DNA from: Procambarus clarkii
Lineage: Eukaryota > Arthropoda > Malacostraca > Decapoda > Cambaridae
Assembly (NCBI RefSeq): GCF_040958095.1
Contig: NC_091188.1
Span: 5,589,056-5,653,055 of the forward strand
Length of the DNA: 64,000 nucleotides
Reading direction: 5' to 3'
The notes below the pieces were generated by a model. It made no database searches and was not told where the DNA came from. It saw nothing but the letters and a program-made list of their open reading frames with translations. Shown here in pieces: positions 13,098 to 62,098 of this stretch (position 1 is the stretch's first letter; every line of letters begins with the position of its first letter). The translations under genes were made by a program, and so were the position numbers.

Positions 13098-13318
13098 GGG
13101 TATTTCCCCAGATCTAAGACGTCGTACAGCGCCGCCTGCGGAAGGGAAGGACATTCCAGGACTATCACGACCAGTTGTGGCTGCGTAAATAAGACTCCAT
13201 CACCTTACCTCATCAGTTTCTCTCAGGATCCCAAGGAAAAAGGAGGTCTGCTTGAATGGAGGAAAATATTATTGTACTTCATAAGTGAGGTATACTCTAC
13301 TGTTGGCCCCAGTCATAG
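13098..13318 (+). promoter_or_regulatory. copy 1 promoter and noncoding exon 1
   Basis: A kappaB-like palindrome gggtatttcccc (13098-13109) is followed by a TATA-like taaataag (13186-13193). An arthropod initiator tcagt has its A at 13215, 29 nt further on. Noncoding exon 1 is inferred as 13215-13318 (104 nt), ending catag|gtaagc. It contains one upstream ATG opening an 11-codon frame. The same layout recurs in copies 2-7. Confidence 0.65.
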
Positions 13319-14036
13319 GTAAGCACTGACGTAACCTGTTGCAGAATCTGCACTCTATGACCTAAACGGCTGAAGGCTGTAAAACAGGAGCACTCTGTTA
13401 CAGGCACTAACCTGAAGAAAGCACTGTTGTAATCCTCTGGAGAACATAGATAGCTGTAGGGTATCCTGTTGACTTTAAACTGATGGACACCTGATGTAGG
13501 GTGCGGTCTGTTGTAAGCTGTAAGCTCAAATACGAACTGCTGTAGGCCTTACACTGAAGTAAATCCTACTTAAACTTAAGTCTTACAGATAAGCAGGACG
13601 ATGATGATAAGGGTAATCTTGCTTGTTATCTTAGTGGTCATGAATGACTCAAGGATGCTACAATAACTCGCGATTTTGTCTGGATCATCAACATTTTGCT
13701 CTCGTCCTCAGGTTAAAATAATTTGGAGGTTTAAAGTGATCTACGTCCTCTGTCTAGCGCCTGTAAAGCTGTGTGCAATAAATTGCAATGTTGGCTATGT
13801 AAATGTTGCACAGCAATGGTCAGGTCTCACTCTCCTGTTGGGCACTTGAATCTACTGTAAGCTCACAGGAGGAATGACTGTTAGTGAAAGCCTGTAAAGT
13901 TCCCTTCCTTAAGCAGTTTTCAAGGAATCACAGAAAATTTCCTTCAACACCATGTCGCTTAGCCTGTAAATCAAGCCTTTGTGTCAAAGTCTAAGAAATG
14001 CTCGAACTGTGTCCAAGAAAATGACACCTGAGTCCT

Positions 14037-14212
14037 GTTGACCAGATCACACACTAGAAGGTGAAGGGACTACGACGCTTCGGTCCGTCCTGGACCATTC
14101 TCAAGTCTCAATCGACTTGAGAATGGTCCAGGACGGACCGAAACGTCGTCGTCCCTTCACCTTCTGGTGTGTGGTCTGGTCAACATTCTTCAGCCGCGTT
14201 ATTGTGACTCAT
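14037..14212. mobile_element. fold-back MITE in intron 1 of copy 1
   Basis: It has complete left and right arms, from gaccagatcacacactagaa to its complement with ggtctggtcaac, and outer ends matching gttattgtgactcat. It is absent from intron 1 of the other copies, so it was inserted after duplication. Confidence 0.85.
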
Positions 14213-14529
14213 CGCCTGCACCTGAGTCCTCTCTACGTTCAAGACGTAGAGAGGTTTGTTATTATATATTCTATTGAAAGTTTTTTTGTCTCTATACAAG
14301 AAATATTTCTAAGTGCTTACCACTTGATTAATTTTGGGCTTAAGGCCTATTAATGGCGGGAGGGGTATTAAGGCCGCCACAGTAGAGTATATTGACCAAC
14401 CAGCACGCATACTTTCATCCTAAGTATAGTCCAGGACTAGAGTAAACTCCCAGCGTATATACACCGAAAAATTTGGTAAGACATTCAATGTATATACGTG
14501 TTAATTTGTATTGTCTACTTTAAACAATA

Positions 14530-58412: not shown

Positions 58413-61400
58413 TTAAATGTAAGCTGAACTTCCACCATATCTTATTTTGGGCTTTGATTTACGTCTAGGTGTTGTGAGCAGCGCTCCCTGTTGAGGAGAT
58501 TAAAACGAATCATTTTAGTTCACAATGCGTCAGATTCATTGTGTAAATCAAGTATTGATAAATGTTTAAATGTAAATAACATGTGTATGTAAGATCATAT
58601 ATATTATTAATGCCAATATACAACCGTTAATGTGATTTGTATTATTTATTGGTCACCATTATTACCATTATTTTATAATTCATTGTGTCGGGGGACAGGA
58701 AGCCAGAGTATATTCATACACGTTAGGCTTTTATTGGAGGTCCTCCCATCAGGGTCGAATTACTGACCCCGCTCAGGATACAACCCGTTCTCGCACTTTC
58801 GTATAGTCAATATTGACTTATTAAATACGTGCATATGTGACATACTAAACATACTAGTTTACCTTGAAAAGCTTCATAGAAAACACCAACCTTACCTAAC
58901 CTTCTTAGTATGTTAAGATAAGCATCTTATTGCTTCGTAATTACAATTATTACTTAACCTATTATAGGTATAGGTTAAGTAATAATTGTAATTACGAAGC
59001 AATAAGATGCTTATCTTAACATACTAACAAGGTTAGGTAAGGTCGGTGTTTTCTATGAAGCTTTTCAAGGTAAACTAGTATGTCACATATGCACGTATTT
59101 AATAAGTCAGTATTGACTATAAGAAAGTGCGAGAACGGGTTGCAGGATATGCAACACCGCAACAAGCTGACTAACTCCCGAGTACCTAGTATTACCTGGA
59201 ATCTATTTTGAATATATATCTCTACTGAAATTTAAATGAAAATGTCCGTGAAACAGAGTTCATAAGATGGATTGTCTTACCAGAAGAGGCCACTTAGCAT
59301 CCCTGCCTCCGGCAACTACTTTTATTACTGAAGCTGGGTCCGCCTCTCTGGTCACCCTTCCACCATGGTCCCCCCTGCTTCCGTTTTCTGTAACCAGCGA
59401 CATAGGCGTTACAGCCCCTTATTGCGCCGTTGCGGCAGCTTAATCACACTCAAACGACTCTGGTTTCGTTACTTTATCGGTGATAAGAGGTAACAATGAT
59501 AAAGATTATATTGTATGTCAATTTATAGTTTATTACTGTCAACAATTATTGATTTTTACCTGAGGAAATTTGTCTCCTGTTCAAAGTTATGCCATTCTGA
59601 AGTCAAAGACAATTGGACACAAATAGGTCTGATATTGCAACAGGGAATCTTAAACTGGAGTACAAGTACCTGTACAGTGGAGCTCCTGCTAGAGTGTATA
59701 TGTTCCAAGGTTGCTCTAGTGTGTATATGTTCCAAGGTTGCTCTAGTGTGTATATGTTCCAAGGTTGCTCTAGTGTGTATATGTTCCAAGGTTGCTCTAG
59801 TGTGTATATGTTCCAAGGTTGCTCTAGTGTGTATATGTTCCAAGGTTGCTCTAGTGTGTATATGTTCCAAGGTTGCTCTAGTGTGTATATGTTCCAAGGT
59901 TGCTCTAGAGTGTATATGTTCCAAGGTTGCTCTAGTATGTATATGTTCCAAGGTTGCTCTAGTGTGTATATGTTCCAAGGTTGCTCTAGAGTGTATATGT
60001 TCCAAGGTTGCTCTAGTATGTATATGTTCCAAGGTTGCTCTAGTGTGTATATGTTCCAAGGTTGCTCTAGTATGTATATGTTCCAAGGTTGCTCTAGTGT
60101 ACTCACCTAGTTGTGTATGCGAGTGTTGAGCTTTGGCTCTTTGGTCCCACCTCTCAACCGTCAACCTACTGGTGTACAGATTCCTGAGCTTCTCGGGCAT
60201 CATCATATATGCATTTGAAACTGTGTATGGAGTTTGCCTCCACCACATCACTTAACCACATTAATCACTCAACCACTGAAATAGTTAATTCTAATTACTG
60301 TGGCTCATTTGGGTATTCAGCTTCCACCTGTGTCCCCTTGTGCGTGTACCACCAGTGTTAAATAATCTATCCTGGTCTACCCTGTCAATTCCCCCCTGAG
60401 AATTTTGTATGTGGTGATCCTGTCTATCCGAGCTCTTCTGTCTTCCCGCGACGTGAGGTGCAGTTCACACAGCCTTTCCTCGTAACTCATGCCTCTTAGT
60501 TCTCGGACTAGCCTAGTGGCATATCTCTGAACTTTTTCCAGCTTCGACTTGTGCTTGACAAGGTACGGGCTCCATGCTCGGGCCGCATACTCCAGAATAG
60601 GCCTTATATATGTGGTATACAAGGTTTTGAAAGATTCCTTACACGGGTTTCTGAACGCAGGTCTGATATTAGCCAGCCTCGCATTCTCTGCCGATGTTAT
60701 TCTTTTTATGTAGGCTTCAGGAGACAGGTTTGGCGTGATATCAACTCCTAGATTTTTCTCTCTGTCCGTTTCGTAAAGGACTTCATCTCCCATTCGGTAT
60801 CCAGTGTCTGGCCTCCTATTTCCTCCACCTAGTTTCATTACCTTACATTTACTCGGGTTGAACTTTAGTAGCCCTTTGTTGGACTATTCCATTAGTTTGT
60901 CTAGGTCATCTTGTAGCCTCATACTATCTTTCTCTGTCTTAATCCTCCTCACAATTTTTGCATCATTAGCAAACATTGAGAGGAACGAGTCTATTCCCTT
61001 TAGGAGATCATTTACATATATCAGAAACAGTATAGGTCCAAAGACTGATCCCTGTGGGACTTCATTGGGGACGCCTCGCCACCTCGAGACCTCACCCCTC
61101 ATAATGACTCGCTGTCTTCTGTTGCTTAGGTACTCCCTTATCCAGTGGAGTCATCTTGCATGGTATCTTCTCCGTTATCTTGCATGATATGCAAGTTAGA
61201 GACACTGGCCTGTAGTTTAGTGCCACCTTATCACCCCTTCTTGAATATCGGGACTACATTAGCAGTCTTCCAAATTTTTGGCAGTTCACCTGTTACCAGT
61301 AATTTGTTATACACCATGGAGAGTGGCAGGCACTAAGCTTCTGCTTCTTCCTTCAATATCTATGGTGAGATCCAAGGTAGTGTGTACATGTTCCAAGGTT

Positions 61401-61916
61401 GCTCTAATGTGTATATGTTCCAAGATACGAATATATATATATATGGTGGTTAGAGTTGTAATTTGCTATTGTGCAAGCACTCCCATCACATTGTTTGGTT
61501 AGGTACCCAATAACCCACTGCACAATATGTGTTAGAACCCTGTCTATGTAGAACAGATGAGAATGTACATATGCTGGTTAGCACTGTTAAAGCTCTTCAG
61601 TCACCTCCTATCGTTGAGTGCTCAATAATCATAGCTATAGAGGGCAGAAGAAAATGTATATATTCTAGTTAGCATTGTATAAATAAGAACCACGTCTAAG
61701 ATGGAAAACAAAACATGCGCAACCTTTTAACATATAAACACGAGGAAACACACCAGGGGAAAGTGTACCCCCGTTAGAAAACTGTATAATAATTAGCAGG
61801 ACAAAACTACTTAATCAGTGTGACTACAGACCAGGGTTGGGTAGTGAGCTGACGAGGACGCTGCACCACAGAGCCAACACCACCACCACACACCACACCA
61901 CACATGACACTCTCAT
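58413..61916 (-). CDS. copy 8 (inverted): secreted basic peptide precursor (88 aa)
   Basis: Coding parts on the minus strand are 61916-61832, 59387-59281 and 58487-58413; the ATG exon begins at 62015. The signal peptide is identical to copies 1, 5 and 7. The middle exon has GGRVTR then EADPASVIKVVAGGRDAKWP. The last exon, GALLTTPRRKSKPKIRYGGS then SAYI and TAA, is the most diverged but keeps the P-K-I-R-aromatic-G pattern and exact length (24 codons). Acceptors (ttacag, ctcaacag), donors and phases 1/0 are intact. It is oriented tail-to-tail with copy 7. A promoter or exon 1 was not found before the window ends. Confidence 0.72.
58781..59142. mobile_element. fold-back element in intron 3 of copy 8
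   Basis: Near-perfect arms of about 175-180 bp (58781-58962 and 58970-59142) meet at a 7-bp loop. Outer ends read caacccgttctcgcactt and its complement aagtgcgagaacgggttg. The left arm has a 9-bp extra segment (ctaaacata). There is no coding capacity, and the high arm identity suggests recent insertion. Confidence 0.9.
59690..60098. repeat. 27-bp minisatellite in intron 2 of copy 8
   Basis: About fifteen units of tgttccaaggttgctctagt plus gtgtata form the tract. Single to few units are found in the same intron of copies 1-7 (reverse complement). The period is a multiple of three, so all frames stay open. No protein is implied. Confidence 0.95.
60099..61375 (-). mobile_element. LINE reverse-transcriptase 3' half inserted in copy 8
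   Basis: On the minus strand the RT blocks are VPQGSVFGPILFLIYVNDL (61040-61096), FANDAKI in place of FADD (about 60990), LGVDITPNLSPEAYIKRI (60740) and YIRPILEYAARAWSPYL (60560-60610). The catalytic motif is altered (second Asp lost) and the 5' half is missing. It splits the 27-bp minisatellite, one unit of which remains at 61376-61425. Confidence 0.85.
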
Positions 61917-62098
61917 CCCTCACGCTCGTCTCCCACACCTCGGACCGGCTGTGCTGGCAAGGGGTCAAAGCCGGATACTTCCTGCTCGTCAGCCCTCGGT
62001 AAATGTTCTTCCCTCCTGCAGTAGAGGACAGCAAAATGAAACATAATATTATATTTTACTGAAAAATATATTATGTTTAGAATAATAGCAACAGAAGG

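Follow-up and report, generated by a model that had tools for sequence, protein, structure and literature searches.

The stretch of DNA analysed here is 64,000 nt from the crayfish Procambarus clarkii (C39:5589056-5653055 in a 4.03 Gb assembly; hereafter the window), and our subject is a tandem array of genes within it that are predicted to encode secreted basic peptides. We rebuilt the genes exon by exon and obtained eight copies, A to G on the plus strand and H on the minus strand, with predicted precursors of 79-93 amino acids (aa). A sequence-only reading of this DNA had proposed eight four-exon genes, seven direct and one inverted. Seven are indeed complete in the window; for copy H, the inverted and most diverged member, exon 1 falls outside, and we found a homologue of that exon just beyond the window, at 64666-64397 on the window scale. 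At the level of sequence, the array of predicted secreted basic peptide genes is confirmed as real. Its coding exons are as follows, in window coordinates:

Copy A, plus strand: exon 2 14684-14867 (ATG 14783), exon 3 17110-17210, exon 4 17451-17525; 86 aa
Copy B, plus strand: exon 2 20192-20375 (ATG 20291), exon 3 21352-21449, exon 4 21705-21776; 84 aa
Copy C, plus strand: exon 2 25655-25826 (ATG 25754), exon 3 27210-27301, exon 4 27551-27625; 79 aa
Copy D, plus strand: exon 2 33645-33828 (ATG 33744), exon 3 34870-34991, exon 4 35157-35231; 93 aa
Copy E, plus strand: exon 2 40559-40742 (ATG 40658), exon 3 41603-41706, exon 4 41857-41931; 87 aa
Copy F, plus strand: exon 2 44656-44839 (ATG 44755), exon 3 45811-45908, exon 4 46074-46148; 85 aa
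Copy G, plus strand: exon 2 50547-50730 (ATG 50646), exon 3 51961-52055, exon 4 52307-52381; 84 aa
Copy H, minus strand: exon 2 62015-61832 (ATG 61916), exon 3 59387-59281, exon 4 58487-58413; 88 aa

Exon 2 comprises 99 nt of 5' untranslated region (UTR) followed by the signal peptide; exon 3 runs from a short pro-segment through an R-V-[TK]-R site and a variable segment to a GG core, and exon 4 encodes the tail. The open frames and the intron phases of 1 and 0 that the sequence-only reading had described are present in all eight copies of the window and in all five copies that we identified on a second contig, C118. All thirteen of these copies have the same predicted junctions, CCTG/GTCTGT to CAG/AA at phase 1 and GTAAG to CAG/G at phase 0. 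The tail motif RP-x-[IL]-x-F-G is exact in seven of the eight copies, the exception being H, which ends KPKIRYG. As for the proposed furin-type site, R-x-x-R is present throughout (RVTR in seven copies, RVKR in G), while the stricter furin consensus, R-x-[KR]-R, is matched by G only. Individual copies differ in detail: C has a 12-nt in-frame deletion in the signal, D has the longest variable segment (in exon 3), and in A the tail RPTIWF is followed by G-RRR. Exon 4 of copy B is split after the FG codons by an insertion of ~0.36 kb (about 21770 to 22127), with the rest of the exon at 22127-22164; because the insertion replaces the end of exon 4, B ends in unrelated residues. Past the stop codon, inside the likely 3' UTR, several copies carry a variable minisatellite (17556-17740, 35262-35566, 52392-52600), and further minisatellites lie at 59608-60181 (27-bp, in an intron of copy H) and 63318-63880 (19-bp).

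The predicted mature parts of A to H are 41-51 aa long, with a charge of +3.9 to +10.9 and a pI of 10.4-12.0. The predicted charge is positive in all eight, and the description of the products as secreted basic peptides is supported. Cysteine is absent from the mature parts of all thirteen copies, proline makes up 4.8-11.8% in the eight of the window, none of which has a PRP motif, and the 5-6 residues that follow FG or YG in A to H include no Asp or Glu.

Upstream of exon 2, each direct copy has the layout of a core promoter and a non-coding first exon:

Copy A, plus strand, 13187..13318: predicted core promoter and UTR exon 1, with TATA-like AAATAAG at 13187, initiator CAGT and predicted start at 13215
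Copy A, plus strand, 13215-13318: UTR exon 1, 104 nt, ending at GTAAGC
Copies B to G, plus strand: predicted starts with the same layout at 18694 (B), 24303 (C), 32226 (D), 38632 (E), 43713 (F) and 49206 (G)

In all seven direct copies the spacing from the first A of AAATAAG to the A of CAGT is 28 nt, and a 104-nt exon 1 then runs to GTAAGC, a pattern that was written after seeing the alignment and that the copies share by descent. In an alignment of the 2.6 kb upstream of the start codons of A to G, conservation was high in two blocks, about 12981-13545 and 14589-14880 in the coordinates of A, and lower in the intron between them. On C118 the core-promoter pattern matched one copy (B2), and an insertion splits exon 1 of A2.

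Several features of exons 2 to 4 are consistent with coding constraint. The length of exon 3, though it ranges from 92 to 122 nt, is 2 mod 3 in all thirteen copies. In multiple alignments of A to G, all six gap runs in the coding part of exon 2 and in exon 3 are divisible by three, compared with 1 of 14 and 2 of 10 in two stretches of intron 2 (3/24 together), although five of the six coding runs are nested length variants of one variable segment, so that the independent events are fewer. If substitutions were placed at random relative to the consensus, the chance that the frames of exons 3 and 4 would be open in all eight copies is ~2e-4, a figure that treats the copies as independent and ignores their shared ancestry. 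Of the 54 ungapped codons of exons 3 and 4, 11 specify the same residue in all eight copies, with synonymous change at 6 of these, and the other 43 are variable.

To describe divergence between the copies we used Nei-Gojobori estimates of nonsynonymous (dN) and synonymous (dS) change over 28 pairs. The signal exon is nearly fixed (dN 0.017, dS 0.047), the pro-segment has a dN/dS of 0.80, and the mature part has diverged at both kinds of site (dN 0.39, dS 0.36), with a dN/dS of 1.39 for exon 4 alone. Among A to G, the mean difference is 0.104 in the last 300 bases of intron 2, 0.228 in exon 3 and 0.215 in exon 4. Exon 3 exceeds this stretch of intron 2 in 21 of 21 pairs among A to G and in 6 of 7 pairs with H; exon 4 does so in 20 of 21 pairs among A to G. 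The ratio of exons 3 and 4 to the intron-2 stretch is 3.0 for A-B, 1.7 for B-C and 1.6 for D-E-F.

The same neighbourhood is found on C118 (2.48 Mb), in long blocks that align mostly at 94-98% identity. That contig carries five copies, which we refer to as A2, B2, E2, G2 and H2, and a D-type exon 1, followed by 5 kb of N (28181-33180 of an 80-kb stretch) in the place expected for D's exons 2-4. Copies C and F are missing there: the aligned blocks jump from the DNA past B to that past C, and again from the DNA past E to that past F, the pattern expected from unequal crossing-over. The left flank on C118 is a widespread repeat, beyond which a protease exon matches at 97%. The right flank is a satellite for which, among the matches listed, all are on C118 and C111. 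By eye, C118:1525001-1545000 is a long array of short units of the CCTCTGCATCCCTCTCTTGAG type, the listed matches of a 1-kb probe being all on C118 and C111. C118 is probably the other haplotype of the array. A segmental duplication is less likely, as is an unrelated duplicate, since the protease exon past the left repeat is also kept at 97%.

Comparing the two contigs over A, B, E, G and H, we found 18 of 874 sites different in exons 3 and 4 and 42 of 1493 in the last 300 bases of intron 2 (p 0.28). Differences in other stretches were 0.037 in intron 1, 0.040 at the start of intron 2, 0.018 in intron 3 and 0.059 past exon 4, the last with one pair above 25% left out. Because the contigs show no difference between exon and intron, the exon excess is restricted to the comparisons between paralogs. 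In a McDonald-Kreitman-like contrast of paralogs and contigs, A-B gave an odds ratio of 4.2 (p 1.7e-4), B-C a p of 0.009 and D-E-F, pooled, a p of 0.018; these values are nominally significant, and the pairs are not independent. For B-C, exon against intron taken by itself gave p 0.074.

We searched for relatives in the genome, in protein collections and in the literature. Exon 2 DNA had 18 matches in the genome, eight on C39, five on C118 and five on C49, the last being short and closely spaced (57 bases, 81-83%); the thirteen on C39 and C118 are the family itself. The 9 matches of exon 4 DNA and the 14 of exon 1 and promoter DNA were all on C39 and C118. The predicted protein of copy E had 31 matches, 27 on these two contigs and 4 elsewhere at E values of 1.6-3.84, and all 4 matches of part of copy H were on the two contigs. 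Among the best-scoring candidates of the DNA and protein searches none was convincing as a distant family member elsewhere in the genome; the sensitivity of these searches is low, exon 4 DNA having recovered 9 of the 13 known copies (G, H, G2 and H2 were missed). In a collection of 5.8 billion proteins we found no relative with an alignment that comprised ten of the thirteen copies (E up to 1) or with copy G (E up to 10), among matches of 0.55-1.75 times the query length, a range that longer fused models would escape. A control query from the same window retrieved eight proteins, three of them named Procambarus clarkii by NCBI, so that the NCBI proteins of this assembly appear to be included in the collection. 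The sole Pfam match up to E 5 was ELH (E 0.079, in one of ten members), with none at the cut-off; NCBIfam matched none of the ten members, and a PDB profile search gave two chance-level matches (best E 0.24). Six peptide strings of the family were absent from the papers in PMC, a scope outside which most subscription papers and preprints lie. The proposal that the family matches none yet described was upheld in each of these sources.

We propose, with a probability of about 0.5, that the array encodes a lineage-restricted family of secreted host-defence peptides of the antimicrobial type, because a fixed signal and a convertase site occur together with a cationic product that varies and with a difference in copy number. 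An unchanging export signal joined to an active part that differs from copy to copy is frequent among defence peptides. We infer transcription, splicing, cleavage, selection for diversity and antimicrobial action, in the following way. Each gene would be transcribed from its own TATA/initiator promoter, with an untranslated exon 1. Exon 2 would supply the nearly invariant signal peptide, and exons 3 and 4 the pro-segment, the R-x-x-R convertase site, the hypervariable segment, a GG-x-[DN]-A core and a [RK]P-x-[IL]-x-[FY]-G tail. Cleavage by a convertase would free a linear, cysteine-free peptide of 41-51 residues with a charge of about +4 to +11, which may act by binding to anionic surfaces of microbes or, once taken up, to a target inside them. 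The array would expand and contract by unequal crossing-over while the mature exons are kept diverse, giving haplotypes with different repertoires.

A number of observations weigh against this interpretation. The main warning is that the family is missing from the NCBI proteins of P. clarkii, which speaks against abundant expression in the tissues used for annotation or points to a different gene model; expression is either low or confined, or another model applies. With respect to the model, the first coding donor is GTCTGT in all thirteen copies, far from the usual donor consensus, GTRAGT, and this is its weakest junction. A kB-like GGGTATTTCCC-type site is found in five of the seven direct promoters, though not in E or F, and is a hint only. 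The amino-acid changes have BLOSUM scores like those of random changes (mean z 0.18, no copy of eight with p<0.05), and dN/dS in the mature part is ~1.07; dS is raised along with dN, a result that positive selection in its simple form leaves unexplained. Moreover, the non-coding neighbours other than the end of intron 2 are not slower than the exons. Among A to G, intron 1 near exon 2 averages 0.170 and the start of intron 2 0.173 (median 0.101), and intron 3 reaches 0.34-0.40 and the 120 bases past exon 4 0.379, although much of these last two stretches aligns poorly between two groups of copies. When only D, E and F are compared, exon 3 (0.130) and exon 4 (0.111) are both exceeded by intron 1 (0.196), by the start of intron 3 (0.144) and by the bases past exon 4 (0.197). 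Intron 2 may for this reason be unusually slow or homogenised, which could produce the contrast between exon and intron.

With dS as high as dN, two readings of the diversification remain: positive selection may have acted together with multiple hits, or gene conversion may homogenise intron 2 and the signal exon while exons 3 and 4 stay distinct. We regard as tentative, and less probable than the general proposal, its more specific form, namely that this is an undescribed defence family of the crayfish lineage in which a fixed signal exon is joined to exons diversified by selection, giving haplotype-specific peptide sets. If true, it would be an animal counterpart of a polymorphic peptide arsenal within one tandem locus.

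An alternative is a secreted reproductive or pheromone-type family, whose peptides would be gland-specific, fast-changing and variable in copy number, acting between individuals or in seminal fluid. A conserved signal, a varied mature part and a difference in copy number fit such secretions equally well, and absence from the NCBI proteins would suit narrow, gland-specific expression. However, all eight mature parts are positively charged, which is more characteristic of defence peptides, and nothing seen in the locus points to reproduction; we consider this explanation unlikely. A similarly low probability attaches to the view that the array is a decaying or non-coding segment, in which a former gene was amplified with the tandem unit and is now drifting. 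It would account for a dN/dS near 1 in the mature part, for replacements that are not conservative, for several non-coding neighbours as divergent as the exons, and for the lack of an NCBI protein, the weak donor and the interrupted exon 4 of B. It sits poorly with frames that are open in 13 of 13 copies, with coding gap runs that are all in frame (6/6), with a signal exon conserved well beyond its surroundings and with a core-promoter layout kept in seven of seven direct copies. Finally, a neuropeptide or hormone family, in which cleavage past the RPxIxFG tail would yield R-P-x-[IL]-[RW]-F-amide peptides resembling short neuropeptide F (sNPF), is improbable to a still greater degree: G and two basic residues follow the tail in A, C and G, and there is a loose resemblance to the XPXRLRFamide shared by Cherax sNPF peptides (PMC5141488, in excerpt), but G-[KR]-[KR] occurs in only three of the eight copies (D, E and F have G-T-R, B and H neither), RLRF occurs in none, and eight varied paralogs with variable copy number are unlike a conserved hormone.

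Upstream of the array lie exons of two ShK-domain serine-protease-like genes, at about -1210 to 8323 on the window scale (plus strand) and about -24.2 kb to -19.7 kb (minus strand), with ShK matches of 1.8e-8 and 3.2e-4 and trypsin pieces of 1.2e-6 and 1.1e-5. Similar DNA is also present at C39:5531544-5531633. Trypsins begin with IVGG, and IVA-x-GGRDA-like strings in G and C prompted us to consider whether the array was born from a neighbouring serine protease. This origin was ruled out, as the neighbours read RQI[LI]FPD in place of the usual IVGG, between the ShK and TAAHC exons, and the PDB profile search returned no protease. Further elements of the window are as follows:

15721-16254, minus strand: GIY-YIG-like frame in intron 2 of copy A (Pfam E 0.0025, below the cut-off), with relatives in P. 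clarkii; probably a Penelope-like element
29498-29923, plus strand: RNase H piece (Pfam 5.5e-7), probably a retrotransposon remnant
36577-36633, plus strand: marginal transfer RNA match (29.7 bits against a cut-off of 29), possibly a short interspersed element

If expressed, the array would give a farmed, invasive crustacean an orphan family of secreted peptides, one probably overlooked because its exons are tiny. Since paralog, haplotype and intron divergence can be compared within one compact locus, diversifying selection on defence peptides would be testable in a single animal, and the predicted peptides are short enough for direct synthesis and assay.

In order to place the peptides among known families, we judged similarity against 200 shuffles in 64 comparisons, with a set that excluded the P. 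clarkii astacidins and arasin-like peptides and procambarin. Overall, six of them fell below 0.05, against an expectation of about 3. Four of eight copies did so with oyster Cg-Prp (B 0.04, E 0.03, G 0.00, H 0.01), which we do not take as homology because shuffling breaks its clustered RP run. For astacidin 2 no copy of eight fell below 0.05, and for arasin-1 one did (G, p 0.04); copy G also gave p 0.01 with penaeidin-1. The evolutionary mode of conotoxin and snake-toxin type families is similar, with a conserved signal, a varied mature region and gene duplication; the likeness ends there, as the crayfish peptides have no cysteine framework and no venom system.

Reports from P. clarkii include astacidins and arasin-like peptides and, like the array peptides, the astacidins, arasins and penaeidins are crustacean, secreted, cationic and arginine-rich (PMC11678341, in excerpt). 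Proline-rich antimicrobial peptides range from 14 to 49% proline in that source; the array peptides fall below this range in all eight copies and lack both the PRP motif and cysteine. Crustins and procambarin are likewise defence peptides of P. clarkii, and crustins have a WAP domain (PMC8155518, in excerpt), unlike the array peptides, which are without cysteine and without a Pfam match at the cut-off. The lack of cysteine in 13 of 13 copies and of Pfam matches at the cut-off in ten of ten members argues against membership of the penaeidins, crustins, stylicins or anti-LPS factors.

The closest working model is most likely a defence peptide such as myticalin, one of the linear cationic antimicrobial peptides that form a taxon-restricted multigene family in Mytilus (PMC5577615, in excerpt). 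Similarity to myticalin A5 was not above that of shuffles for any of the eight copies, and that peptide contains 29% proline (PMC11678341) compared with 4.8-11.8% in the crayfish. The layouts also differ: exon 2 of the myticalin genes holds the mature peptide, placed between the signal and an anionic extension at the C terminus (PMC5577615), whereas in the crayfish genes the predicted pro-segment precedes a mature part that is divided between exons 3 and 4, and none of A to H has an anionic propeptide past a dibasic site. What the crayfish genes would share with the myticalins, as far as the excerpted account goes, is a UTR-only exon 1 with the start codon in exon 2, a conserved signal peptide with a hypervariable cationic mature peptide, and a taxon-restricted multigene family with possible presence/absence variation (PMC5577615). 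Lineage-restricted, varied, secreted cationic peptides are a kind already known, and the P. clarkii array is a family of that kind new to the sources searched.

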